Assembly: GCF_000020945.1 (NCBI RefSeq)
Contig: NC_011295.1
Location: 124,001-188,000, forward strand
Source of the DNA: Coprothermobacter proteolyticus DSM 5265
GTDB taxonomy: Bacteria > Coprothermobacterota > Coprothermobacteria > Coprothermobacterales > Coprothermobacteraceae
Reading direction: 5' to 3'
Length of the DNA stretch: 64,000 nucleotides
Positions 46,687 to 59,505 of the stretch are shown here, one piece after another (the stretch's first letter is position 1; every line of letters starts with the position of its first letter). The position numbers and the translations under genes were made by a program. Under the pieces are notes generated by a model. It saw nothing but the letters and a program-made list of their open reading frames with translations, made no database searches and was not told where the DNA came from.

Positions 46687-46715
46687 CAGAGCCTCCTTCT
46701 TAATGGGAGGCTCTG
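46687..46715. terminator. Bidirectional terminator hairpin
   Basis: CAGAGCCTCC (46687-46696) pairs perfectly with GGAGGCTCTG (46706-46715). It separates two convergent genes and includes the stop codon of the P-type ATPase gene. Following T-richness is modest on both strands. Confidence 0.7.
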
Positions 46716-48658
46716 CTTGTTAATCTGAGACTGTTCAGCAGTACGAGTAATGCAGTGCCTTCGTCAGCCACAACGGCCAACGGCAGCGCTACGTAGCCCA
46801 AAAGGCTTGTAGTAAAGATGGCTACTTTTATTCCCAGGGACAACCCCACATTGGTTTTTACAGTACTTGTGTACGACTGGGCATAACTGGGCAAATTAAC
46901 CAGCGGCGTTAATGTCCCGCTTAGTATGAAATCAGCGGTTTCTACAATGGTCTTAATCCGTCTATCTGGCAGTGCCACAGACACGTGAGCCTCAGAGAGC
47001 GCTAGGGCATCGTTAAGACCGTCTCCTACCATTAAGCAGTGTTCTCGCTTTTCAAGTTCTTTGACGAAGGCTTGTTTGCCCTCGGGCGTCATATTGGCGT
47101 AGTATTCATCGACTTTCAGTTGTCTTGCCAGGGTTTCCACTTTCTCGTGCTGATCTCCACTTAGTATGATTATTTTGTAACCCTGATCTTTAAGACGCTG
47201 TATAACCCAAGGGGCCTCATCACGGAGTTCTTCTTCAACCTTAAAAAACCCAACATCCATTCCATCAACTTTCACCTGCAGCAGGTCTTTCATTGTTAGC
47301 TCCACTTGATGGTTTTCTATCTCTCCGGTAATGACATTTCCATTTTGTCTAACTTTTGCTTCTTTCAAAACAATGTTCTTTTCTGCAGCATAAGCAACGA
47401 TAGCGTCAGCTACAGGATGCTTAAAGTAGGATTCCACTGAAGCAACCAAGGCTAAATGTTCATCGCTTATTTGAGCTTCGGTGATCTTCATGCGGCCTGT
47501 GGTAATGGTTCCGGTTTTATCGAAAATCACCGTTCCCACTTGTGGAAGCTTCTCCAAGGCATCAGTGTTTCTAACCAGTACGCCCTGGCGTGCCAGCGTA
47601 GAAACAGCCGCTGACACAGCTGAAGGTGAAGCCAGCAGTAGAGAACAAGGACAAGCAATGAGAAGTAAAACTGAACTACGATAAACAGCCACAGAAAACG
47701 CGTTTCCAGACAATAAGCCGAACAAGAAAACCGCCACAGCGCTTATGAGTACCAAAGGCGAATACACGTTTGTAAAACGCTCCATCCAAGATCTAAAAGC
47801 ACTCTTTCTACTTAACGTTTGAGCGATGGTTTTCTGTACTTGTGCTAGGTTGCTTTCCTGCAGGGGTCTTAATACTTCTGCATCACAAGGAGTAAGCAGC
47901 TTTGATCCTGACAGTACCATGTCACCTGGTTCATGGTTTACAGGTGCACTTTCACCAGTTATGACGCTTTCATCGACTAAGGCAGGAGAAAGCAAGACGA
48001 CGTCCACTGGTACCGTATCGCCTGCTGTGAAGCGAATGTGGTCTCCAGCTTTAAGTTGTTCCACCTCTACCGCTACGAGTTGCTGTTCTTTTATCAGCAT
48101 GGCGCTGTCAGGTATGTCAGTTAATATGCTTCTTAATCCCTCTTGTGCTTTCTTTTTCACAGACTCTTCTATGATCTCGGCTAAGGCATACAGGTTAAAA
48201 ACCATGGCTGCTTCCACATAAGCACCGGCTATGAACCCTCCAGTTCCGCCTAAAAGCATAAGTAGGTTTTCATCGAAAATGTCCAGCACACCCACACTTA
48301 AGTTGTGAACCAGCTCGTGCACACGTGGATAGCCGTTTATTATGGAGCTCACAACCAAAAAAGTAATACCCACAGGTGGGCTAAGGCGAATGGCAGCAAA
48401 ACCGATTGCAAACAAAACAAGACCAGAAATAGTAATAAAACGCTCTGTTCTTTCTTCGTGCTCCTCGTGGTACAAGCCGGCTTGAGAAAGTAGCCTCTTT
48501 ATTTGGATTAGTTGTTCCTCATCAGCTTCCACACTTATGATGCCGGTGGGCACGTCAATAACCAGATCTCGGGCTAGGTTTTTCTTCTTTATTTCTTCTT
48601 CAATGTGAACAGCACACTTTGGGCACTTGAGCTGAGTTGCAGTGAGGGTTGTCCTCAC
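46700..48658 (-). CDS. Heavy-metal P1B-type ATPase, probable Zn/Cd exporter
   Basis: The 652-residue pump has an N-terminal metal-binding domain (CPKC at 13-16), eight helices with the metal-site CPC (LIACPCSLLLASPS), and the phosphatase motif 'VITGES'. The phosphorylated aspartate is in DKTGT, the HP motif in 'YFKHPVADAI', and the hinge is 'GDGLNDALALSEA'. The CPC motif with a zinc-type ArsR/SmtB gene directly upstream points to Zn, Cd or Pb export and not copper. The start is GTG 48658, nine bases after AGGAGG, with the regulator's stop just before it. The specificity is inferred from context. Confidence 0.93.
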   Translation of the reverse strand: MRTTLTATQLKCPKCAVHIEEEIKKKNLARDLVIDVPTGIISVEADEEQLIQIKRLLSQAGLYHEEHEERTERFITISGLVLFAIGFAAIRLSPPVGITFLVVSSIINGYPRVHELVHNLSVGVLDIFDENLLMLLGGTGGFIAGAYVEAAMVFNLYALAEIIEESVKKKAQEGLRSILTDIPDSAMLIKEQQLVAVEVEQLKAGDHIRFTAGDTVPVDVVLLSPALVDESVITGESAPVNHEPGDMVLSGSKLLTPCDAEVLRPLQESNLAQVQKTIAQTLSRKSAFRSWMERFTNVYSPLVLISAVAVFLFGLLSGNAFSVAVYRSSVLLLIACPCSLLLASPSAVSAAVSTLARQGVLVRNTDALEKLPQVGTVIFDKTGTITTGRMKITEAQISDEHLALVASVESYFKHPVADAIVAYAAEKNIVLKEAKVRQNGNVITGEIENHQVELTMKDLLQVKVDGMDVGFFKVEEELRDEAPWVIQRLKDQGYKIIILSGDQHEKVETLARQLKVDEYYANMTPEGKQAFVKELEKREHCLMVGDGLNDALALSEAHVSVALPDRRIKTIVETADFILSGTLTPLVNLPSYAQSYTSTVKTNVGLSLGIKVAIFTTSLLGYVALPLAVVADEGTALLVLLNSLRLTSRASH

Positions 48659-48659
48659 T

Positions 48660-48977
48660 CTATTTCACCTCCTGGATGTGGCTTATGGCCATTTTCAGTA
48701 CGGAGCTCACATGATCGTCGTCTAATTCATACACTCTGTACTTGCCTTTGCGTTCAACTTTTACCACGCGCCTTCCGCGAAGTAGCGAAAGATGATGGGA
48801 TACAGCTGAAGCGGAAAGTCCTGTGAGTTCGGCTATGCTGGACACAGGCAGGGATTTGTCGTGCAAAGCAAGTAGTATCTTGATGCGGGACGTATCACCG
48901 AAAATATCAAAGAAGTCAGCCAAATTGCAGACAAGCATCTCATCTTTTAACAATTGCTCATTTGAATAATCGCTCAT
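48660..48977 (-). CDS. ArsR/SmtB-family zinc-type metal-sensing repressor
   Basis: The 105-residue winged-helix repressor has 'ELTGLSASAVSHHLSLLR' as recognition helix region. The C-terminal helix holds the zinc ligands in SmtB spacing: D-x-H, then H eleven residues after the first H, then E three later ('DDHVSSVLKMAISHIQE'). In SmtB these are D104, H106, H117 and E120. It should leave DNA when zinc binds, allowing expression of itself and the exporter downstream. ATG 48977 follows GGTGATG. An SmtB-like operator overlaps the start codon region. Confidence 0.93.
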   Translation of the reverse strand: MSDYSNEQLLKDEMLVCNLADFFDIFGDTSRIKILLALHDKSLPVSSIAELTGLSASAVSHHLSLLRGRRVVKVERKGKYRVYELDDDHVSSVLKMAISHIQEVK

Positions 48978-50602: not shown

Positions 50603-51079
50603 ATGTCGGTACAATTTATCACCAGAACCGCAATACTTTTAGCTCTCACAATGATATTCCAATCTTTCCGTGCCCCGCAGCTTGTTACGGGTACTTTAGT
50701 AAATGGCATGCTACTGATTTCTGCTGGCTATGTGGGAATGTGGTCTGGTGTAATCATCGGACTCTTTACCCCTGTTTTGGCTTTTCTTTTTGGGATAATG
50801 AAGTTCCCACCCATGATACCTTTCATCATGATTGGGAACGCTTTGTATGTACTGGTATTTTCGGGAATGAAGAACAAACCTGTTGGTATGGTATTAGGTT
50901 CTTTAGTAAAGTTTTTGTGGCTCAGTGCTTCGGTTTATTACATGCTTCCACTTTTTGGTGTGAAAGCTCCGGCTGTTTTAGTGGAAATGTTTACCTTCCC
51001 TCAATTGGCGACTGCTGTTATGGGAGGTATTTTGGCGTTGTTGGTGCTGAGTTTATTAAAGAAATCGTTATTGGAGTGA
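50603..51079 (+). CDS. Small membrane protein, ECF S-component-like, of the hydrogenase cluster
   Basis: A 158-residue protein of five or six helices that opens with 'TRTAILLALTMIFQSFR', typical of ECF-transporter substrate-binding (S) components. It also has 'GTLVNGMLLISAGYVG' and 'GLFTPVLAFLFGI'. It could bind a small molecule such as a vitamin or metal, but no ECF ATPase is nearby. It heads a run of closely spaced genes leading to a hydrogenase-like sensor, so a role linked to hydrogenase or H2 sensing is possible. The family assignment is moderate; the ligand is unknown. Confidence 0.7.
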   Translation: MSVQFITRTAILLALTMIFQSFRAPQLVTGTLVNGMLLISAGYVGMWSGVIIGLFTPVLAFLFGIMKFPPMIPFIMIGNALYVLVFSGMKNKPVGMVLGSLVKFLWLSASVYYMLPLFGVKAPAVLVEMFTFPQLATAVMGGILALLVLSLLKKSLLE

Positions 51080-51091
51080 AGGAGTAACTGC

Positions 51092-51463
51092 ATGAAGCTG
51101 TACGAAGTGAAAGAGATTCTTGATGCTGAAGTTCTGTCAGGTGAAGACAAATTGGATCAAGAAGTTTTTGGTGCCTGTGGTGCCGATTTGATGAGTGATG
51201 TGCTAGCTTGGAAGGGTGATAAGGGCGTTCTGCTAACTGGGCTAACCAACCCTCAAGTTGTACGCACTGCCGAAGTGGTAGGTGATGTGAAATGCATCGT
51301 ATTTGTTCGTGGAAAACGTCCCAGCACGGAGACCGTGGAGCTGGCGAAGGAGGCAGGCATTGTACTGATGAGATGCAAATATCCCATGTTTGTAGCATGT
51401 GGACTATTGTTCTCGAGGGGTTTAGTACCTGATGAATATGGAGAAATTAGCCGCATCCTATAG
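51092..51463 (+). CDS. DRTGG-domain protein, first copy
   Basis: This 123-residue protein is built of a single DRTGG-type domain, found as a regulatory module in phosphotransacetylases and beside [FeFe]-hydrogenases (for example the Thermotoga TM1420-1426 region). It begins 'YEVKEILDAEVLSGED' and contains 'ACGADLMSDVLAWKG' and the closing 'AGIVLMRCKYPMFVACG'. Probably a small-molecule-binding regulator; the ligand is unknown. AAGGAG precedes the ATG by seven bases, and it overlaps the next gene by 32 bases. A second DRTGG gene lies at 53233. Confidence 0.82.
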   Translation: MKLYEVKEILDAEVLSGEDKLDQEVFGACGADLMSDVLAWKGDKGVLLTGLTNPQVVRTAEVVGDVKCIVFVRGKRPSTETVELAKEAGIVLMRCKYPMFVACGLLFSRGLVPDEYGEISRIL

Positions 51464-51884
51464 GCTTGAATATGATGTAAAGGCTAAAGACTACGTAAGA
51501 GGTGGCGAAGTTTCTAGTGCTTTGCGGGCTGTGCTGAAGCAACTCTCCTTGCCACCAGAGCTGGTAAGACGTTGCTGTGTGGCTTGCTATGAAGCCGAGA
51601 TGAACATTATCATACACTCATTAGGTGGGCACCTGCAGATTGACATATACCCTGACAGGTTGGTCATGGTGGCTGAAGATAGCGGGCCCGGTATTGAAGA
51701 CTTGAACAAGGCCATGGAAGAGGGTTACAGTACGGCGCCTGAGGAAGCCAGGGAGATGGGCTTCGGAGCCGGTATGGGCTTACCAAACATAAAAGCTAAT
51801 ACGGATAGGCTGGACATAACCACGGGTCCGGAAGGTACAAAACTTATCATGGAGGTTTTGTTTGTTGGAAAAGATGGCCAATAA
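51432..51884 (+). CDS. GHKL ATPase, anti-sigma-factor (RsbW)-like
   Basis: The 150-residue protein has the GHKL ATP-binding fold of RsbW/SpoIIAB-type serine kinases. The N box is 'CYEAEMNIIIHSLGG', the G1 box is 'VAEDSGPGI', and the G2 box is 'GFGAGMGLPNIK'. Such proteins phosphorylate or sequester a partner in regulatory cascades. It overlaps both neighbours, and its position just before the hydrogenase-like sensor gene suggests it passes on that signal. ATG 51438 is an alternative start. No sigma factor or STAS-domain partner is visible nearby. Confidence 0.85.
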   Translation: MNMEKLAASYRLEYDVKAKDYVRGGEVSSALRAVLKQLSLPPELVRRCCVACYEAEMNIIIHSLGGHLQIDIYPDRLVMVAEDSGPGIEDLNKAMEEGYSTAPEEAREMGFGAGMGLPNIKANTDRLDITTGPEGTKLIMEVLFVGKDGQ

Positions 51885-53226
51885 TGCCGGCGTTTACTAC
51901 CATTCTGTAACACTGGACGAGGAAAAATGTAAAGGATGCACAAATTGTATTAAACGTTGTCCTGCCGAAGCTATCAGAGTCAGAAATGGTAAAGCCCGCA
52001 TCATTGATCAGCTTTGCATTGACTGCGGCGAATGCATAAGAGCTTGCCCGAACCATGCTAAGGTGGCAGTAACAGATAGCTGGGATCTCATGAACGATTT
52101 TAAGTACCGCATCGCGTTGCCTGCTCCATCTTTATATGGGCAATTCAAAAATGTGGACGTGGACAATGTTCTCACAGCACTTCTGGAAATCGGGTTCGAT
52201 GATGTTTTTGAAGTAGCCTTAGGAGCCGACATTGTTTCAAAACTCACGCGTCAAGCACTCATGGAAAACAGATTACGCAGACCTGTGATTTCCTCATCCT
52301 GCCCCGCTGTGGTGCGACTAGTTCAGATCCGATTTCCTTCGCTTTTGGATAATGTCCTGGATTTATGCACGCCCATGGAAGTTGCCGCAACCTTGGCAAA
52401 AGACGAGGCTGTAAGAAAGACCGGGTTAAAACGTGAAGAAATAGGCACCTTCTTTATATCCCCGTGTGGGGCTAAGGTTACCAGTGTTAGGAAGCCTATC
52501 GGCACAGACAAAACCGATGTAGACGGGGTTCTGTCGCTGGCAAGTGTATACAGTGCTATTGCGGATAAGGTAAAGAAAGTACAGCCTATGCCTTTAAGTA
52601 AAGCATCCATGATCGGTATAGGATGGGCAAAATCTGGTGGGGAAGCTGCAGGAACATTACTGGAGAACTACATTTACGTGGATGGGATACAGAACGTCAT
52701 AAAGGTTTTAGAAGAAGTGGAACTTGGAAAAATGGAGGATTTGGATTTTCTTGAAGCAATGGCTTGTGTTGGTGGGTGTGTGGGTGGCCCTCTCACCGTG
52801 GAAAACAATTTCGTTGCTCAGCAAAGAATTAAGAAACTTACCGAAAAATGGCAGAAGGACAGAAACAATAATAAAGTGCCAGCAAAAGACGAAGAGCAGG
52901 GCATTTACAACAAAATGGAATTGGGTCGGGCGCGATGGAAAAAGCCTTTGGAAAGAAGTGACGCTATGGAATTGAGCAGCGACATTGCTGAGGCACTGAG
53001 TATGATGCAGAGAATTGATGAAGTTCTCGCCACCTTGCCTGGGTTGGACTGCGGTTCCTGCGGTGCACCCACCTGCAGGACGCTGGCTGAGGACATTGTT
53101 AAAGGACTAGCAACCGAATATGATTGTGTTTTCATTTTGAAGAACAGGATCAAGAGCCTTGCTCAGGAACTTAGCACACTAGCTGGAAAAATTCCACCTG
53201 TGATGGGTGAAGGAAAGGAGAGTTAG
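51862..53226 (+). CDS. [FeFe]-hydrogenase-like protein with altered H-cluster motifs, putative H2/redox sensor
   Basis: This protein of about 454 residues has two N-terminal [4Fe-4S] motifs (CKGCTNCIKRCP, CIDCGECIRACP), a hydrogenase large-subunit C-like domain, and a C-terminal four-cysteine FeS domain ending (CGSCGAPTC). The three H-cluster motifs are recognisable but changed: SSSCPAV at 144-150 for TSCCPGW, 'SPCGAKV' for 'MPCxxK' and 'EAMACVGGCVGGP' for the third. In motif 1 only the second of the usual cysteine pair remains, while in the true HydA downstream only the first remains. It therefore looks like the sensory-type relatives beside bifurcating hydrogenases, not a catalytic enzyme. 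The start is TTG 51862 or 51865, after GGAGG. The sensing role is inferred. Confidence 0.85.
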   Translation: MLEKMANNAGVYYHSVTLDEEKCKGCTNCIKRCPAEAIRVRNGKARIIDQLCIDCGECIRACPNHAKVAVTDSWDLMNDFKYRIALPAPSLYGQFKNVDVDNVLTALLEIGFDDVFEVALGADIVSKLTRQALMENRLRRPVISSSCPAVVRLVQIRFPSLLDNVLDLCTPMEVAATLAKDEAVRKTGLKREEIGTFFISPCGAKVTSVRKPIGTDKTDVDGVLSLASVYSAIADKVKKVQPMPLSKASMIGIGWAKSGGEAAGTLLENYIYVDGIQNVIKVLEEVELGKMEDLDFLEAMACVGGCVGGPLTVENNFVAQQRIKKLTEKWQKDRNNNKVPAKDEEQGIYNKMELGRARWKKPLERSDAMELSSDIAEALSMMQRIDEVLATLPGLDCGSCGAPTCRTLAEDIVKGLATEYDCVFILKNRIKSLAQELSTLAGKIPPVMGEGKES

Positions 53227-53232
53227 CTAGCG

Positions 53233-53577
53233 GTGAATGTAAAACTAAGGGTTAGGGATCTTTTGGAGAATGGGTTCCAGCTCGTAGCTGGTGATGATGG
53301 CTTAGAAAATCCTATTGAGGGAGTTTACATATGTGATCTTTTAAGCTGGGTCATGGCAAAGTCCAAACCCAAGAATGCGTGGATAACCATTCAAAGTCAT
53401 GTGAACATTGTGGCAGTGGCATTGATGGTGGAGCAGAGCTGCATCATCGTTTCAGAAGGTGTGGAAGTGGAAAAGGAAGCAGTGGAAAGAGCAAATGAAG
53501 AAGCTATGCCCATTCTCAGTTTTCCTGGAACGTCCTACGAAGCGGCAATAAAACTGTATCAACTGCTGTCTAGATAA
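53233..53577 (+). CDS. DRTGG-domain protein, second copy
   Basis: A 114-residue single-domain protein related to the gene at 51092, with 'LRVRDLLENGFQLVAGDD', 'VYICDLLSWVMAKSK' and a closing 'AMPILSFPGTSYEAAIKLY'. It is probably a ligand-binding regulator working with the PHP protein encoded immediately downstream; the two are joined stop-to-start as TAAATG. The start is GTG 53233, with AGGAG in the end of the sensor gene upstream. Keeping two diverged DRTGG proteins in one operon suggests a pair or heterodimer. Confidence 0.8.
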   Translation: MNVKLRVRDLLENGFQLVAGDDGLENPIEGVYICDLLSWVMAKSKPKNAWITIQSHVNIVAVALMVEQSCIIVSEGVEVEKEAVERANEEAMPILSFPGTSYEAAIKLYQLLSR

Positions 53578-54291
53578 ATGAGGCTCTATTACGACCTTCA
53601 CATACATAGCGCCCTTTCTCCCTGTGCATCTGATGACATGACCCCCAATAATATTGTGAACATGTGCCTTTTAAAGGGTTTGGACATTATCGCTGTTACT
53701 GACCATAACAGTGTCAGAAACGTGGAAGCCGTGGTTAATCTGGCACAAAGAAAGGGTCTCGTAGTGGTTCCAGGTATGGAGGTGCAAACCAAAGAGGAAG
53801 TTCATGTATTATGCTACTTCTACACTTTGGATCACTGTTACGACTTTCAAGCTAAGTGGGAAGATTCTCTTCCTAAAATAGAAAACCGCCGTGAATACTT
53901 TGGCAACCAGCTTATCCTCGATGAAGACGATGAATTGATCGGTGAGTATCCTTATTTACTGCTTACTTCTTCTTACTTCGGGGTAGAAGACGTCTTTAGG
54001 CTTATAAGGGACCGAGGAGTTGCAGTTTTTGCACATGTGGACAGACCTTCCTACAGTGTGCTTTCGAATCTGGGTTTTATCCCTGATATGGATGGTGTGG
54101 CAACTTTGGAAATCTCAGGCGCTGTGAGCCCTCAGCAGTTTCTTATGCAGCACCCTACGCTGGGAAAGTACCGCATTTTACAATCCTCTGATGCCCATTA
54201 CTTGGGTGACATCATGGAACGTGTGAATTACGTTGAACTGACGAGTCCTTCTGTGGAGGCTCTCCTTAAACACTTAAGTGGCTTTGCGTGA
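53578..54291 (+). CDS. PHP-domain phosphoesterase of the hydrogenase cluster
   Basis: The 237-residue protein has PHP metal-binding motifs: 'DLHIHSALSPCASDDM' (HxH), 'GLDIIAVTDHNSV' (DH), 'VPGMEVQT' (E), 'VHVLCYF' (H), and near the end 'LQSSDAHYLGD' (DxH). It should hydrolyse a phosphate ester using two or three metals. Homologues lie in Thermotoga-type hydrogenase clusters, but I know of no defined substrate. The ATG directly follows the stop of the DRTGG gene and has no ribosome-binding site, so translation is by coupling. It is the last gene before the structural hydrogenase promoter. Confidence 0.87.
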   Translation: MRLYYDLHIHSALSPCASDDMTPNNIVNMCLLKGLDIIAVTDHNSVRNVEAVVNLAQRKGLVVVPGMEVQTKEEVHVLCYFYTLDHCYDFQAKWEDSLPKIENRREYFGNQLILDEDDELIGEYPYLLLTSSYFGVEDVFRLIRDRGVAVFAHVDRPSYSVLSNLGFIPDMDGVATLEISGAVSPQQFLMQHPTLGKYRILQSSDAHYLGDIMERVNYVELTSPSVEALLKHLSGFA

Positions 54292-54308: not shown

Positions 54309-54348
54309 TTTTTTAACTCGTTAAAGAATTCACGTAATATGTTATAAT
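54309..54348 (+). promoter_or_regulatory. Hydrogenase structural-gene promoter with Rex-like inverted repeat
   Basis: TTAAAG (54321-54326), a 16-base spacer and TATAAT (54343-54348) preceded by TGT make a good extended promoter. The -35 is covered by an inverted repeat at 54309-54328 with core TTAA-CTCG-TTAA, which matches the centre of the known Rex site TTGTTAA-n4-TTAACAA (11 of 14 arm positions by eye). A redox-sensing Rex repressor would fit the gene function, but no rex gene is in the window. Confidence 0.5.
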
Positions 54349-54433: not shown

Positions 54434-54952
54434 ATGGAACAACTTTACGAGCTGTTCGGCATCGATAGAGTCGAAGAATTCAGAGCAAAGCTGGAGGAAC
54501 TTAAAAAGGTGCCAGGTTCCATGATCTCCATTCTCAACGAGGCCCAGGAAATGTTTGGTTACATTCCTTTTCAGGTTCAAGAACTCATTTCGAAGGAAAC
54601 TGGGGTTCCCTTAACGGAGATTTTTGGCATCGTGACCTTCTATTCGCGCTTTAGCATCGTTCCCGCTGGGAAGTACAAAATCAGCTTGTGCTTGGGGACC
54701 GCTTGCTATGTGAGGGGCAGTGGACAAATCCTAGAAAAGCTCAAAGAGAATTTGGGCATCAATGAGGGAGAGACCACTTCCGATGGTATGTTCTCATTAG
54801 AAGCCGCAAGGTGCTTGGGAGCTTGCGCATTAGCCCCGGTCATGATGATCAACGGAGAGGTCTATGGACGTCTTACGCCCGACGAAGCTGTAAAAGTGAT
54901 ACAAAGGATAAAGAAACAAGATCTCTCTCAGGCTGCCGCTGAGGTTGAGTAA
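54434..54952 (+). CDS. hndA: NuoE-like [2Fe-2S] subunit of the [FeFe]-hydrogenase (HydC/HndA)
   Basis: This 172-residue thioredoxin-like ferredoxin carries electrons between the NADH-binding and hydrogenase subunits. Cluster ligands are C-x4-C in 'CLGTACYVRG' and C-x3-C in 'ARCLGACALAP'. The first half has the NuoE helical domain ('GYIPFQVQELISKETG'). AGGAGGG precedes the ATG. It is the first structural gene after the promoter at 54321-54348, and its leader contains a small hairpin. The subunit set here matches the NADH/ferredoxin bifurcating or NADP-linked (Hnd) hydrogenases; which coenzyme is used cannot be told. Confidence 0.95.
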   Translation: MEQLYELFGIDRVEEFRAKLEELKKVPGSMISILNEAQEMFGYIPFQVQELISKETGVPLTEIFGIVTFYSRFSIVPAGKYKISLCLGTACYVRGSGQILEKLKENLGINEGETTSDGMFSLEAARCLGACALAPVMMINGEVYGRLTPDEAVKVIQRIKKQDLSQAAAEVE

Positions 54953-54964
54953 AGCGGGAGGAGC

Positions 54965-55558
54965 ATGAAGGAATTGGCTCTTTACGTACTGGATCTTGCA
55001 CAGAACAGCGTTGTCGCAGGAGCAAAGCATATCACCATTGACATTACTGCTGACGTTAAAGCGGACCATTTATTAATCAGAATAGTAGATGACGGGAAGG
55101 GTATGAGCCCACACTTAGTGGAAAGAGTGACGGATCCCTTCTTTACCAGTAGGAAGGAACGCCGTTTCGGTCTGGGAATTCCATTTTTTAAGGATTTGGT
55201 TGAGCAGTGCGGAGGTACGCTTACCATCAAATCTAAAGAAGGGGAAGGGACGATTATCGAAGGAAAGCTGAAATTATCTAGTGTGGATCTTGTTCCCTTG
55301 GGTGATATGGGTTCTACCATTGTTTCGTTGCTTGTATCCAACCCAGAACTTAATCTGGTTTATCGTTTCACGTTAAATGATTACTCATTTACATTCGACT
55401 CTGCACAAATCAGAGAAGTTCTTCAAGGAGTAAACATTACAGAGCCTTCCGTACTCAATTGGATTAAAGATTACGTAAATGAGGGAAGCATTGAAATTCT
55501 TCCCAACATAAATATTTCCAAGAAAGAGGGGGCAAAAAAGGATTATGAAGCAGATTAA
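54965..55558 (+). CDS. GHKL ATPase of the hydrogenase operon
   Basis: The 197-residue protein is a histidine-kinase-like ATPase domain without a receiver or dimerisation helix. It has an N box ('YVLDLAQNSVVAGA'), a G1 box ('RIVDDGKGMSP'), an F box ('DPFFTSRKERRFGLGIPFF') and a short C-terminal part of unclear fold. Proteins like this sit between the HndA- and HndB-type genes in many clostridial hydrogenase operons, so it is a standard but unexplained member. GGGAGGAGC precedes the ATG, and it overlaps the next gene by 14 bases. It may regulate the enzyme or signal its state. Confidence 0.87.
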   Translation: MKELALYVLDLAQNSVVAGAKHITIDITADVKADHLLIRIVDDGKGMSPHLVERVTDPFFTSRKERRFGLGIPFFKDLVEQCGGTLTIKSKEGEGTIIEGKLKLSSVDLVPLGDMGSTIVSLLVSNPELNLVYRFTLNDYSFTFDSAQIREVLQGVNITEPSVLNWIKDYVNEGSIEILPNINISKKEGAKKDYEAD

Positions 55559-55925
55559 GACCTTAGAGGATCTGCAAAAAATCAGAGAAGAAGCCTTACG
55601 CAAGGTAAACATCAGAAGTGATCGTTCAGGAACAAGAATTACTGTGGGCATGGCAACTTGCGGCATTGCTGCTGGTGCCAGACCTGTGATGATGGCCATT
55701 TTGGATGAGTTGGAGAAGCGAAATGTGACGGGTGTTACCGTGGTAGAAACGGGCTGCATTGGACTCTGCAAGTTTGAACCCATCGTAGAAGTGTACGTAC
55801 CTGGCCATGAGAAAGTTACTTACATAAAGATGGATCCTGATAAAGCTAGGCAAGTAGTTGTAGAACATGTCATAAATGGACATCCCATTAGGGAATGGAC
55901 GTTGGAAAGCGCTGAACTGGAGTAA
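55545..55925 (+). CDS. hndB: HndB-like thioredoxin-fold ferredoxin-like subunit
   Basis: The 126-residue protein resembles HndB and the C-terminal part of NuoE. The first cysteine is in 'MATCGIAAGARP' and a C-x3-C is in 'ETGCIGLCKFEP'. The usual second cysteine (C-x4-C) is alanine (CGIAAGA), as in HndB, so it has three of four [2Fe-2S] ligands and its cluster state is open. It overlaps the GHKL gene by 14 bases. It is probably part of the hydrogenase complex or an assembly/regulatory partner. Confidence 0.9.
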   Translation: MKQIKTLEDLQKIREEALRKVNIRSDRSGTRITVGMATCGIAAGARPVMMAILDELEKRNVTGVTVVETGCIGLCKFEPIVEVYVPGHEKVTYIKMDPDKARQVVVEHVINGHPIREWTLESAELE

Positions 55926-55950
55926 AGGTCGTTCTTGGAGGTGAAGAAGA

Positions 55951-57741
55951 ATGCTTTATAGATCACACGTAATGGTATGTGGAGGCACGGGGTGCACTTC
56001 TTCTGGTTCCGATAATGTAGCTGCTGCTTTTGTCAATGAAATAAAGAAAGCAGGTTTAGACAAAGAGGTAGCAGTAATAAGAACTGGTTGTTTTGGTTTG
56101 TGCGAGTTGGGGCCGGTAGTCGTTATTTACCCAGAAGGTGTGTTTTACAGCAAAATGAAGCCAGAATATGTTCCCGAAATCGTTGAAGAACATTTGCTAA
56201 AAGGCAGACCAGTAACTAAGTACCTGTTTGGTGAAACAGTCACCGAAAAAGAAATAAAACCACTGGAAGAAACCACATTCTACAAAAAACAAATGCGTGT
56301 CGCTCTGAGGAACTGCGGCATCATCGATCCAGAAGATATTGAAGAAGCCATTGCCATGGGGGCATATGAGGCACTAGGCAAGGTCTTAACTACGATGACC
56401 CCTGAGCAAGTCATTGACGAAATGAAGAAGTCAGGTTTAAGGGGTAGAGGCGGCGGTGGATTCCCCACGGGATTGAAGTGGGAATTTGCTTACAAACAGA
56501 AAGAGACCCCCAAATACGTGGTGTGCAATGCTGACGAAGGTGACCCCGGTGCTTTCATGGACAGAAGTATCATGGAAGGTGATCCCCACAGTGTGCTGGA
56601 AGGCATGGCTATTGCGGGTTACGCCATTGGTGCTAACCACGGCGTCATTTATGTAAGAGCCGAGTACCCCTTGGCTGTAAAACGTCTTCAGATTGCCATA
56701 AAGCAGGCACGTGAATACGGCTTGTTGGGTGACAACATATTTGGAACCGACTTCAGCTTCGATGTGGAGATAAGGTTCGGAGCAGGCGCTTTCGTGTGCG
56801 GAGAAGAAACTGCCTTATTGAACTCTGTCATGGGTAGACGTGGTGAACCCAGGCCCAGACCTCCTTATCCGGCAGTTAAAGGGCTTTGGAATAAACCCAC
56901 CATTATAAATAACGTAGAGACTTTTGCTAACGTTCCTGTCATCATAAGCAACGGTGCAGAGTGGTTCTCATCCATCGGTACTGAGAAATCCAAAGGGACT
57001 AAAGTGTTTGCCTTAACTGGAAAGGTGAACCGTACAGGACTCATTGAGGTTCCCATGGGTACCACTCTTAGGGAGATCATTTTTGACATTGGTGGCGGAA
57101 TTCCTGACGGAAAAAGGTTTAAAGCCGTTCAAATAGGTGGTCCATCTGGTGGTTGCATACCTGAAGAACACCTGGACACCGTGATTGACTACGACTCACT
57201 TATTAGCTTGGGCGCAATGATGGGCTCGGGCGGACTGGTGGTCATGGACGAAGATACATGCATGGTTAACGTTGCGAAATTCTTCCTGGAATTCATCGTA
57301 GATGAATCTTGTGGAAAGTGTGCTCCATGCAGAATCGGTACAAAGAGAATGCTGGAAATCCTAGATAAGATTACGTCAGGTAAGGGAGAACCTGAAGATA
57401 TCGATCGGCTAGAGAAGCTGGCTACAACCATTAAAGATACAGCACTGTGCGGTTTGGGACAGACGGCGCCTAACGCTGTTCTTTCCACGCTTAGGTACTT
57501 CAGAAATGAATATGAGGCTCACATCAACCAGAAGAAGTGTCCTGCTGGTGTATGCCAAGCATTGCTTTCCTATACCATCGTTGCTGACAAATGCAAAGGC
57601 TGTGGTTTGTGCGCAAGGAATTGCCCCGTGAATGCCATTTCAGGGGAACTTAAGCAGCCTCATGTGATTAATCAAGAAGCTTGCATCAAGTGCGGTACAT
57701 GCTTTGAGAAGTGCCCATTTGGTGCCATTGTGAAACAGTAA
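55951..57741 (+). CDS. hndC: NADH-binding flavoprotein subunit of the [FeFe]-hydrogenase (HydB/HndC)
   Basis: The 596-residue NuoF-like subunit holds FMN and the NAD(P)H site and is where electron bifurcation is thought to occur. In order it shows an N-terminal [2Fe-2S] thioredoxin-like domain ('CGGTGCTSSG', 'RTGCFGLCELGP'), 'GLRGRGGGGFPTGLKW' (NAD/FMN binding), 'CNADEGDPGAFMDRS' and 'GAGAFVCGEETALL'. The [4Fe-4S] motif is 'SCGKCAPCRIGTKRM', and two C-terminal [4Fe-4S] motifs follow (CKGCGLCARNCP, CIKCGTCFEKCP). TTGGAGGTG precedes the ATG. All motifs are intact. Confidence 0.97.
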   Translation: MLYRSHVMVCGGTGCTSSGSDNVAAAFVNEIKKAGLDKEVAVIRTGCFGLCELGPVVVIYPEGVFYSKMKPEYVPEIVEEHLLKGRPVTKYLFGETVTEKEIKPLEETTFYKKQMRVALRNCGIIDPEDIEEAIAMGAYEALGKVLTTMTPEQVIDEMKKSGLRGRGGGGFPTGLKWEFAYKQKETPKYVVCNADEGDPGAFMDRSIMEGDPHSVLEGMAIAGYAIGANHGVIYVRAEYPLAVKRLQIAIKQAREYGLLGDNIFGTDFSFDVEIRFGAGAFVCGEETALLNSVMGRRGEPRPRPPYPAVKGLWNKPTIINNVETFANVPVIISNGAEWFSSIGTEKSKGTKVFALTGKVNRTGLIEVPMGTTLREIIFDIGGGIPDGKRFKAVQIGGPSGGCIPEEHLDTVIDYDSLISLGAMMGSGGLVVMDEDTCMVNVAKFFLEFIVDESCGKCAPCRIGTKRMLEILDKITSGKGEPEDIDRLEKLATTIKDTALCGLGQTAPNAVLSTLRYFRNEYEAHINQKKCPAGVCQALLSYTIVADKCKGCGLCARNCPVNAISGELKQPHVINQEACIKCGTCFEKCPFGAIVKQ

Positions 57742-57759
57742 AAGGAGGTCTGAAGCCGC

Positions 57760-59505
57760 ATGGACAAGGTAACTGTGACCATAGATGGCATTACTCTAGA
57801 GGTTCCAAGTAACTACACCGTTTTGCAGGCTTGCCGAGAAGCAGGCATTGACATACCCACATTGTGTTATGCAGAAGTGATTAATGAGATTGGTTCCTGC
57901 CGCCTATGCGTGGTAGAGGTCGATGGCGTTAGGAATTTACCGGCATCTTGCATTTATCCGGTACAGAATGGTATGAACATTCGTACCAATACGCCCCGGG
58001 TCAGAGAAGCACGCAGAGTAAACCTGGAGCTAATTCTTTCCAATCATGACCGGAGTTGCCTCACCTGCATAAGAAATACCAAGTGTGAGCTACAGGATTT
58101 GGCAGAACGGTTTGGCATTACTGACATTGAATTCCAAGGCGAAAACGTAAACTACCCCTTGGATGATGCTTCGCCTGCCATTGTCAGGAATCCAAACAAG
58201 TGCGTCCTGTGCCGCAGGTGCATTGCAGAATGTCAGGAAGTACAGAATGTTTTTGCCATAGGTGCTGTGAACAGAGGTTTTGATACATTGGTTTCTGCAC
58301 CTTTCTATGTGAGTCTGAATGATTCTCCTTGCATCAGTTGTGGACAATGCATAACCGCTTGTCCCACAGGAGCACTGTACGAAAAAGACCACATCCAGAG
58401 GGTTTACAGGGCCTTAGCTGACAAACGTAAGCATGTTGTGGTTCAAACAGCACCTGCAGTAAGAGTGGCTTTGGGTGAGGAATTTGGCATGCCTGTGGGC
58501 AGCATAGTCACTGGAAAAATGGTAGCTGCCCTGAGGCGATTGGGCTTTGAAGTGGTTTTCGATACAGACTTTGGTGCTGACCTTACCATCATGGAAGAAG
58601 GCTCTGAGCTCATTGAAAGGCTTAAATATGGTGGGAAGTTGCCCATGATTACTTCCTGCAGCCCGGGTTGGATTAACTTCTGTGAAAAGTACTATCCGGA
58701 TTTCGTGGAAAACTTGTCTACGTGCAAATCACCACACATGATGCTGGGTGCGTTAATCAAGACGTACTACGCTGAGAAGATGGGCTGGAACCCGGAAGAT
58801 GTGTATGTGGTTTCAGTCATGCCCTGCACAGCAAAGAAGGTTGAAATTGAAAGGCCTGAAAATATGCACGATGGCTTGCAGGATGTTGACGCAGTCCTTA
58901 CCACACGCGAACTAGCACGCATGATTAAGGAAGCTGGTATTGATTTCGTTAACTTGCCTGACGAGGAATTTGATCAGCCACTGGGCATGTCCACAGGTGC
59001 TGCAGTAATATTTGGTGCCACTGGTGGTGTCATGGAGGCAGCTTTGAGAACCGTAAGCGAAATTGTTGAAGGCAAACCGTTGGACAAGATTGACTTTGAA
59101 GAGGTCAGGGGCCTTGATGGCGTAAGAGAAGCTACCGTAACTGTGGACGGTCTGGATCTAAAGCTTGCCATTGTAAACGGAACTGGTAATGCAAAGAAGC
59201 TCTTGGACAAGATCAGAAGCGGTGAAGCCGAGTACCACTTTATTGAAATCATGGGTTGCCCTGGTGGTTGTATTACAGGCGGTGGACAGCCCATACACCA
59301 TCCTAATGAAATGGCTGAAGTTAGAAAACTAAGAGCTGCCGCTATCTATCAAGCTGATAAGAATCTCCCTCTGCGAAAGTCCCATGAAAACCCAGCCATA
59401 AAGCAAATTTACGAGGAGTACCTTGGACATCCTTTGGGTGAGAAGTCTCACCACCTGCTCCATACGCACTATTCTTCGAAACCGCTTTACAAGGTGACCA
59501 GATAA
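57760..59505 (+). CDS. hndD: [FeFe]-hydrogenase catalytic subunit HydA/HndD
   Basis: The 581-residue subunit makes or uses H2 at the H-cluster. It has an N-terminal [2Fe-2S] domain (C36, C47, C50, C64), a His-ligated [4Fe-4S] motif ('HDRSCLTCIRNTKCE') and two [4Fe-4S] motifs (CVLCRRCIAECQ, CISCGQCITACP). H-cluster motifs follow: TSCSPGW (298-304), 'MPCTAKKVEIE' and 'EIMGCPGGCITGGGQP', then the small-subunit domain at the C-terminus. Motif 1 has serine in place of one of the two usual cysteines; I recall the same in HndD-type enzymes. AAAAGGAGG precedes the ATG. Last gene of its operon, with a strong terminator seven bases after the stop. Confidence 0.97.
   Translation: MDKVTVTIDGITLEVPSNYTVLQACREAGIDIPTLCYAEVINEIGSCRLCVVEVDGVRNLPASCIYPVQNGMNIRTNTPRVREARRVNLELILSNHDRSCLTCIRNTKCELQDLAERFGITDIEFQGENVNYPLDDASPAIVRNPNKCVLCRRCIAECQEVQNVFAIGAVNRGFDTLVSAPFYVSLNDSPCISCGQCITACPTGALYEKDHIQRVYRALADKRKHVVVQTAPAVRVALGEEFGMPVGSIVTGKMVAALRRLGFEVVFDTDFGADLTIMEEGSELIERLKYGGKLPMITSCSPGWINFCEKYYPDFVENLSTCKSPHMMLGALIKTYYAEKMGWNPEDVYVVSVMPCTAKKVEIERPENMHDGLQDVDAVLTTRELARMIKEAGIDFVNLPDEEFDQPLGMSTGAAVIFGATGGVMEAALRTVSEIVEGKPLDKIDFEEVRGLDGVREATVTVDGLDLKLAIVNGTGNAKKLLDKIRSGEAEYHFIEIMGCPGGCITGGGQPIHHPNEMAEVRKLRAAAIYQADKNLPLRKSHENPAIKQIYEEYLGHPLGEKSHHLLHTHYSSKPLYKVTR

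Follow-up and report, generated by a model that had tools for sequence, protein, structure and literature searches.

The window, a 64,000-nucleotide stretch of the Coprothermobacter proteolyticus DSM 5265 genome, contains six neighbouring open reading frames between positions 50603 and 54291, all of which were confirmed on the plus strand. They encode an ECF-type S-component-like membrane protein (158 aa; 50603..51079), the DRTGG-domain protein D1 (123 aa; 51092..51463), the SpoIIAB/RsbW-like HATPase_c_2 serine-kinase-type protein W (150 aa; 51432..51884), HydS, a putative sensory [FeFe] hydrogenase of the group D/M2e type (at most 454 aa; 51862..53226), the second DRTGG protein D2 (114 aa, GTG start; 53233..53577), and a PHP-family metallophosphoesterase (237 aa; 53578..54291). 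Successive genes are separated by 12 nt, overlap by 32 and then 23 nt, and finally lie 6 nt and 0 nt apart, in agreement with the compact run of overlapping or abutting genes described in an earlier note on this DNA. The associated hyd operon of the electron-bifurcating type (54434..59505, plus strand) includes hydC (54434-54952), the gene for the GHKL ATPase K (54965..55558), a gene for a 2Fe-2S protein (55545-55925), hydB (55951-57741), and hydA (57760-59505), all on the same strand.

The promoter that the earlier note had assigned to the six-gene run was not recovered. A sigma-70-type scan revealed no sites upstream of 50603, and the four matches in the region did not exceed the level of shuffled sequence (6.1 ± 2.2). 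An extended -10 element, TGTTATAAT, was seen by eye upstream of hydC; it falls below the rule of the scan. Control of hydC by Rex was considered and rejected: the Rex-like site at 54310-54327 has three mismatches, and such sites occur in the window at chance frequency (7 found versus 5.8 expected).

The S-component-like protein was matched by PF12822 (ECF_trnsprt) with E=2.4e-11 and 44.4 bits against a cut-off of 30.7; no solved structural relative was found. Outside the window, it was detected only in two other Coprothermobacter genomes (loci L031 and L043). It was therefore rejected as a member of the module, in which it had previously been included, and is a genus-specific passenger rather than part of the conserved cassette.

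HydS displays the Fe_hyd_lg_C domain (PF02906; 130.2 bits, E=1.3e-37), two [4Fe-4S] motifs (Fer4), and a PF04060 FeS domain. Its listed start codon is TTG; an ATG at 51874 is also possible. Among 109 HydS sequences, the H-cluster cysteines C147, C202, and C306 are conserved in 100% and C302 in 98%. The position of CpI C299 is occupied by Ala in 73 and by Ser in 10 of these sequences, and that of CpI M353 by Thr or Ser in 101; the window protein has Ser at both. The C-terminal motif Cx2Cx4Cx16C comprises C397, C400, C405, and C422, and no PAS domain was detected by the Pfam scan. Judged by its cysteines, the changes at C299 and M353, the C-terminal motif, and the lack of PAS, HydS would belong to group D/M2e. 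TamHydS from Thermoanaerobacter mathranii is alike in its two N-terminal [4Fe-4S] motifs, an H-domain with four cluster cysteines, the loss of C299, Ser/Thr in place of M353, the same C-terminal motif, the lack of PAS, and a location upstream of a bifurcating group A hydrogenase (PMC8163306, PMC13104023).

The HATPase_c_2 domain of W scored 42.4 bits. The protein aligns to SpoIIAB structures with E=2.8e-10, and SpoIIAB and RsbW are its closest relatives of known structure. Residues E54 and N58, the DxGxG motif, and the G2 box are conserved in 97-100% of sequences; E54 and N58 (99%) align with E-A-V-T-N of SpoIIAB, which corresponds to a GHKL ATP site with the catalytic Glu and Asn. A search of the whole genome for STAS (PF01740) and STAS_2 (PF13466) proteins gave no matches, while these profiles matched in 10 and 7 of 14 control genomes, respectively.

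D1 scored 23.9 bits with the DRTGG profile, slightly under the cut-off of 25.2; the assignment was later confirmed by its AF2 model (pLDDT 94.1), the best fold match of which is the DRTGG protein 2ioj (TM 0.77). D2 lies above the cut-off (PF07085; 27.1 bits). Both proteins carry an invariant serine: Ser35 of D1 (codon 51194..51196, plus strand; motif D-L-M-S-D) in all of 122 sequences, and the equivalent Ser38 of D2 (codon 53344..53346, plus strand; motif D-L-L-S) in all of 121. Pta-type and CBS-pyrophosphatase-type DRTGG domains of the sampled set have other residues at this position; by these alignments, the serine is cassette-specific within the sampled DRTGG domains. In the predicted D1 model, Ser35 is located in the first turn of helix 34-38, and we infer that it is a candidate phosphoacceptor.

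The PHP protein was matched by PF02811 (34.9 bits, E=2.4e-8), and its metal-binding set HxH, DH, E, H, H, DxH is intact: H8, H10, C16, D42/H43, E68, H76, H153, D205, and H207 are conserved in 95-100% of 110 sequences. Its kin include EndoQ, PHP phosphoesterases, nucleotidases, and nucleases. The earlier suggestion that the set holds a possible sensor, a kinase-type transmitter, and a hydrolase was borne out insofar as HydS is of the kind proposed to sense H2 and the kinase and PHP sites are intact. K (PF02518) has a C-terminal alpha/beta domain of its own; its model (pLDDT 89.9) matches the fold of MutL and histidine-kinase ATPases. In most loci that lack HydS or are interleaved, the K gene directly follows PHP, and it is usually the sixth member of the cassette. 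Neither PHP nor K was found within reach in the NuoG-type loci L179, L181, L182, L185, and L186, so that PHP is not an obligatory reverser.

The genes D1, W, HydS, D2, and PHP form a cassette that is conserved across many phyla, far above chance. All four partners adjoin HydS on the same strand in 58 of the 65 named loci with enough flank, and D1 is located upstream of HydS in 71/74 HydS loci with upstream sequence; these counts are not independent, because the loci are related to one another and come mostly from gut Clostridia. At least one partner is missing nearby in 7 of the 65. The partner count becomes 59/65 if locus L078, whose D2 had been missed, is included. The gene order is kept over Bacillota, Atribacterota, Bacteroidota, and MAGs labelled Spirochaetes and Muiribacterium; the phylum-level sample around G053 comprised three genomes. 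The gene-neighbourhood survey thus upholds a widely conserved module, now of five genes.

Natural fusions join D1 with W (L181, L182), W with HydS (L171), and HydS with D2 (L115), and were confirmed by Pfam in L182, L171, and L115. They suggest that these proteins form a physical complex. HydS and W with CBS domains are nearly exclusive: 103 cassettes have HydS only, 11 have CBS only, 3 have both, and 5 have neither. In HydS-less cassettes, W usually carries two CBS domains. CBS-bearing proteins occur in four places of the W tree (142 columns), where few starred branches enforce their placement; the tree is too short for a firm count of sensor swaps.

Of the 35 HydS loci flanked by at least 8 kb on both sides, 22 have a HydB-type gene within reach, and in several genomes the cassette stands alone, more than 8 kb from any such gene. 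The HydS-bearing cassette usually occurs in genomes with a group A hydrogenase, and a full-length group A-like HydA was found in 15/15 genomes with unlinked or isolated HydS loci. The rule that HydS occurs only with an [FeFe] HydA was rejected: five genomes encode no Fe_hyd_lg_C protein other than HydS, whose signal therefore need not act back on a hydrogenase. HydS-less cassettes lie beside HdrA-, HoxU- or NuoG-like partners in genomes without any Fe_hyd_lg_C protein. The cassette is therefore not tied to hydrogenase. Scattering of the genes in genomes without hydrogenase had been named as evidence against a module; the genes do occur without hydrogenase, yet as an intact cassette. More often, the cassette accompanies a diaphorase of the HydB/HydC (Bfu) type whose catalytic subunits vary; neighbouring operons are called Bfu-type by HydB/HydC homology. 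In the split loci L179, L185, and L186, D2 heads the C-B-A operon.

HydS alone is already known, whereas the cassette appears to be undescribed beyond single-genome gene lists. The TamHydS papers do not describe the partners D1, W, D2, PHP, and K, the fusions, or the HydS-less forms (PMC8163306, PMC13104023). Group C HydS proteins (TmHydS, PMC10055695; Thermoanaerobacterium HfsB/HfsC, PMC11837493) are likewise putative sensory hydrogenases associated with production hydrogenases, with a serine phosphatase-like neighbour, HfsC (PMC11837493), but they carry PAS on the hydrogenase, and the accessible parts of these sources report neither a pair of DRTGG proteins nor a SpoIIAB-like kinase nor PHP (PMC10055695, PMC11837493). 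The Bfu family (HydABC, Fdh, NiFe, and others) shares the B/C core and variable A subunits with the cassette-associated operons; the accessible portion of that paper marks the regulatory genes of these clusters without analysing them (PMC9304861). The Halanaerobium hydrogeniformans operon Halsa_1862-1871 combines hydrogenase, NADH dehydrogenase, ferredoxin-like, histidine kinase, NuoE, PHP, Fe-S hydrogenase, and anti-sigma kinase genes, in a single-genome list without comparison or mechanism (PMC4237134). For DRTGG or PHP with hydrogenase, the freely accessible literature yielded gene lists only.

We propose that D1, W, HydS, D2, and PHP, usually with K, form a modular signalling complex that tunes a Bfu-type (HydABC-like) oxidoreductase to the H2, redox or energy state; its probability is put at roughly 0.45. 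As the exchangeable input, HydS would be a group D [FeFe] hydrogenase of low activity that reads H2 or redox state; in other lineages, adenine-nucleotide input through the CBS domains fused to W probably replaces it. The SpoIIAB-type kinase W would phosphorylate the invariant DRTGG serine, in place of a STAS partner, and PHP would take the phosphate off D1 and D2. The phosphorylation state of D1 and D2 would be the output, with D2 as the arm nearest to HydS and the target enzyme, and may raise or lower the activity or the expression of the latter.

This proposal is favoured by the conserved order, the fusions, the HydS/CBS exclusivity, the intact kinase, PHP, and H-cluster residues, the invariant serine, the absence of STAS and STAS_2, the position of D2 at the head of C-B-A operons, and the group A-like HydA in 15/15 genomes. 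Second-hand support comes from T. tengcongensis, for which PMC3492117 cites a fourfold decrease of NADH-dependent hydrogenase activity at high H2 and histidine and Ser/Thr kinase genes upstream of the hydrogenase. Against it count the five NuoG-type loci without PHP and K, the seven HydS loci with missing partners, the five genomes with HydS as the sole H-domain protein, and the C-terminal FeS cluster of TamHydS, whose redox state is unchanged by H2 (PMC13104023). Signal relay from group D [FeFe] hydrogenases is an open question in the literature (PMC8163306). More tentatively, and with the balance tilted against it, the cassette may be a new architecture, a STAS-free serine-kinase/DRTGG phospho-switch with plug-in H2 or adenylate sensors that governs bifurcating enzymes generally, possibly at the enzyme level, and may supply the missing output of these sensory hydrogenases. 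D1, W, D2, PHP, and K are named here as likely partners of the spectroscopically studied putative H2 sensors of group D, with the fusions as evidence of partner contact and one serine pointed out for mutation. The same device also accompanies enzymes that have the same type of diaphorase but are not hydrogenases. Control of the NADH/ferredoxin/H2 balance in anaerobes, such as gut Clostridia, thermophilic H2/ethanol producers, and syntrophs, becomes directly testable.

An unlikely alternative is nucleotide signalling, in which adenine nucleotides or an alarmone are bound by DRTGG (and CBS) domains and hydrolysed by PHP, and W and K act as ATP-dependent conformational switches, not protein kinases. 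CBS domains on W and the nucleotidases and nucleases among PHP kin speak for it, as does the DRTGG fold, which is closest to the regulatory part of a nucleotide-regulated pyrophosphatase; since the CBS-pyrophosphatase DRTGG domain belongs to such a unit, the invariant serine could serve ligand binding. However, this serine is not common to pyrophosphatase- or Pta-type DRTGG domains, and W retains the SpoIIAB catalytic glutamate and asparagine. Assembly or maturation of Bfu-type complexes by the two ATPases, the DRTGG proteins, PHP, and the FeS-rich HydS, without signalling, is distinctly doubtful. The most frequent neighbours are Bfu B/C subunits, alongside very different catalytic subunits, and K, encoded within the enzyme operon, resembles MutL-class ATPases; but HydS can be dispensed with, its place being taken by the regulatory input domain CBS, the cassette stands far from any HydB-type gene in several genomes, and W aligns with anti-sigma kinases.

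The relationship of W to SpoIIAB and RsbW also speaks for the canonical form of the partner-switching idea raised earlier, whereby W would be an anti-sigma kinase with an RsbV/SpoIIAA-like antagonist encoded elsewhere, and input from HydS would free a sigma factor for hyd genes. The intact SpoIIAB-type site, and small partners whose invariant serine stands where a helix begins, recall SpoIIAB-SpoIIAA and RsbW-RsbV; the cassette has PHP in place of a PP2C phosphatase. The canonical form is nevertheless very improbable, because the genome lacks a STAS protein; moreover, the window cassette showed no sigma factor, and the D1 fold is DRTGG, not STAS. Finally, the notion that the other genes are unrelated neighbours of HydS, itself either a minor hydrogenase or a known putative H2 sensor, which draws on the group D biochemistry known for HydS alone (PMC8163306), is scarcely tenable, being already contradicted by the partner conservation in 58/65 loci, the fusions, and the occurrence of the other genes as a cassette without HydS.

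All six ORFs of the run described in the earlier note were found at the locus, and they overlap or abut as claimed (intergenic spacings of +12, -32, -23, +6, and 0 nt). Pfam assigned them, in order, to ECF_trnsprt (the S-component); DRTGG, slightly under the cut-off (D1); HATPase_c_2 (W, a SpoIIAB/RsbW-like kinase); Fe_hyd_lg_C with Fer4 and PF04060 FeS (HydS); DRTGG (D2); and PHP (the phosphoesterase PHP). The genes hydC, a second GHKL ATPase (K; window 54965-55558), a 2Fe-2S protein, hydB, and hydA (57760-59505) are located 3' of the run. HydA and HydS are the only two proteins with an [FeFe]-hydrogenase large domain in the whole Coprothermobacter proteolyticus genome, a single contig of 1,424,912 bases. 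The run had also been credited with its own promoter; the scan recognised none upstream of 50603, and the number of sites did not exceed that in shuffled sequences.

The four H-cluster cysteines are all present in HydS. The cysteine of the proton relay (CpI C299) is missing, and a serine occupies the M353 position. Two N-terminal [4Fe-4S] motifs and an exact C-terminal Cx2Cx4Cx16C were identified; a Pfam scan revealed no PAS domain in HydS. The protein has the features given for enzymes of group D/M2e, the putative sensory hydrogenases that include TamHydS (PMC8163306). The latter enzyme is active, with a high affinity for H2, and its authors pointed to an adjoining ATPase resembling histidine kinases and raised the question of how the signal is transmitted (PMC8163306). 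Group D HydS is therefore already known, and the novelty here lies in its partners.

The gene-neighbourhood survey proposed in the earlier note covered 80 named HydS loci from a genome-wide scan, with partners detected by profile HMMs trained on the genes of the window together with related sequences. HydS is repeatedly found in the order D1-W-HydS-D2-PHP on a single strand, and all four partners accompany it in 58 of the 65 loci with enough flank. This cassette is present in Bacillota, Candidatus Caldatribacterium, Atribacteria, Draconibacterium, and another Bacteroidetes, as well as in MAGs labelled Spirochaetes and Muiribacterium. The S-component, counted earlier as a member, occurs among the surveyed loci in Coprothermobacter only. 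The cassette is real and widely conserved; its members are K and the five genes of the run other than the S-component. An additional D1-like DRTGG copy, flanked by D2 and PHP, was seen in one genome (G085; L035:8618-9031), and four loci (L067, L069, L087, and L088) contain group D HydS genes without most cassette partners nearby.

The cassette is not bound to hydrogenase. Hyd genes stand beside many cassettes, either downstream, divergent upstream, or interleaved as C-[D1 W HydS D2 PHP]-K-F-B-A. Among the 35 loci flanked by 8 kb on both sides, 13 lack a HydB-type gene within reach. Full-length group A-like HydA was present in all 15 genomes tested, most of which were picked for an unlinked or isolated HydS locus. 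Across 386 sampled genomes, selected blind to HydS and for the most part limited to one or two from each family, D1 was found in 61 and a HydS-like match, group C included, in 73. Many of the 40 loci read possess D1-W-D2-PHP-K without HydS. Two CBS domains are attached to W in 11 of 16 HydS-less cassettes versus 3 of 106 HydS-containing ones, counts that include related, non-independent loci; Pfam confirmed CBS in L154, and CBS appears in four separate places of the weakly resolved W tree. Intact cassettes also occur in genomes with no Fe_hyd_lg_C protein at all (8 of 18 sampled for HydS-less cassettes; G009 has a completeness of just 59%, and the calls for G248 and G375 rest on D1/D2 spacing alone). 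Catalytic neighbours of HydS-less cassettes include HdrA-like fusions (L154, L160) and a HoxU-like protein (L158). HydS is the sole Fe_hyd_lg_C protein in G144, G158, G228, G296, and G306, whose loci (L181, L185, L189-L191) encode NuoG- or molybdopterin formate-dehydrogenase-like subunits alongside. The commoner associate is a NuoE/NuoF-type C and B pair, which by homology matches the core of the Bfu family of bifurcating enzymes (PMC9304861).

W residues E54 and N58 align with the Glu and Asn of SpoIIAB (E-A-E-M-N versus E-A-V-T-N) and are 99% conserved, with DxGxG and the glycine-rich lid conserved to a similar extent. The metal ligands of PHP are intact. In K the GHKL ATP site is preserved, although Asp replaces the usual catalytic Glu; its C-terminal alpha/beta domain is also conserved (D108, P111, G113), and the gene lies inside bifurcating-type enzyme operons of several phyla.

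The suggested partner-switching pathway is unlikely in its usual form: no STAS or STAS_2 protein was found in the whole genome, and the D1 model has a DRTGG, not a STAS, fold. D1 and D2 share D-L-x-S, whose serine is invariant in 122 D1 and 121 D2 sequences; Pta- or CBS-pyrophosphatase-type DRTGG domains from the sampled genomes have other residues there. In the D1 model (pLDDT 94), Ser35 occupies the first turn of helix 34-38. The phosphoserine of SpoIIAA is likewise at a helix start. Given the invariant serine, its location, and the missing STAS protein, we propose D1 and D2 as candidate substrates of the W kinase.

Natural fusions join D1 to W (L181 and L182, the latter Pfam-confirmed), W to HydS (L171, Pfam-confirmed), and HydS to D2 (L115:2237-3931, 564 aa, a Symbiobacterium MAG, Pfam-confirmed). 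Read together, these gene fusions suggest a physical D1-W-HydS-D2 assembly. In three split genomes (L179, L185, L186) D2 heads the C-B-A operon, and W-HydS lies several kb away, accompanied by D1 in L185 and L186; this hints that D2 is the member nearest the target.

Under the proposed mechanism, W would be set by HydS reading H2 or redox state, or by CBS domains reading adenylates; it would phosphorylate D1/D2, PHP would reverse this, and the D1/D2 state would determine how strongly the bifurcating enzyme is expressed or how active it is. Counter-arguments are that PHP and K are absent from some NuoG-type loci, that the C-terminal cluster of TamHydS is unresponsive to H2 (PMC13104023), and that DRTGG domains may act via nucleotides. 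In its favour, PMC3492117 cites a fourfold decrease of NADH-dependent hydrogenase activity at high H2 in T. tengcongensis, with histidine and Ser/Thr kinase genes upstream of the hydrogenase. The same paper notes that kinases and phosphatases are encoded upstream in C. thermocellum, and a whole operon of the cassette type was listed without comment for Halanaerobium (PMC4237134). In the open-access literature, no paper was found that describes the cassette or its variants without HydS, nor the fusions or the serine. The proposed mechanism is now sharply testable.

A Rex-like palindrome with 3 mismatches (window 54310-54327) lies inside the 142-nt gap preceding hydC, followed directly 3' by an extended -10 (TGTTATAAT). 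Its placing is suggestive; Rex-like sites across the window occur at chance frequency. Directly 5' of the run, a calcineurin-like phosphoesterase (PF00149; 49092-50519) with apparent N-terminal membrane segments showed no sign of cassette membership. The minus strand at 46700-48977 encodes a heavy-metal P-type ATPase and an upstream ArsR/SmtB-like regulator, both named by eye from translations.
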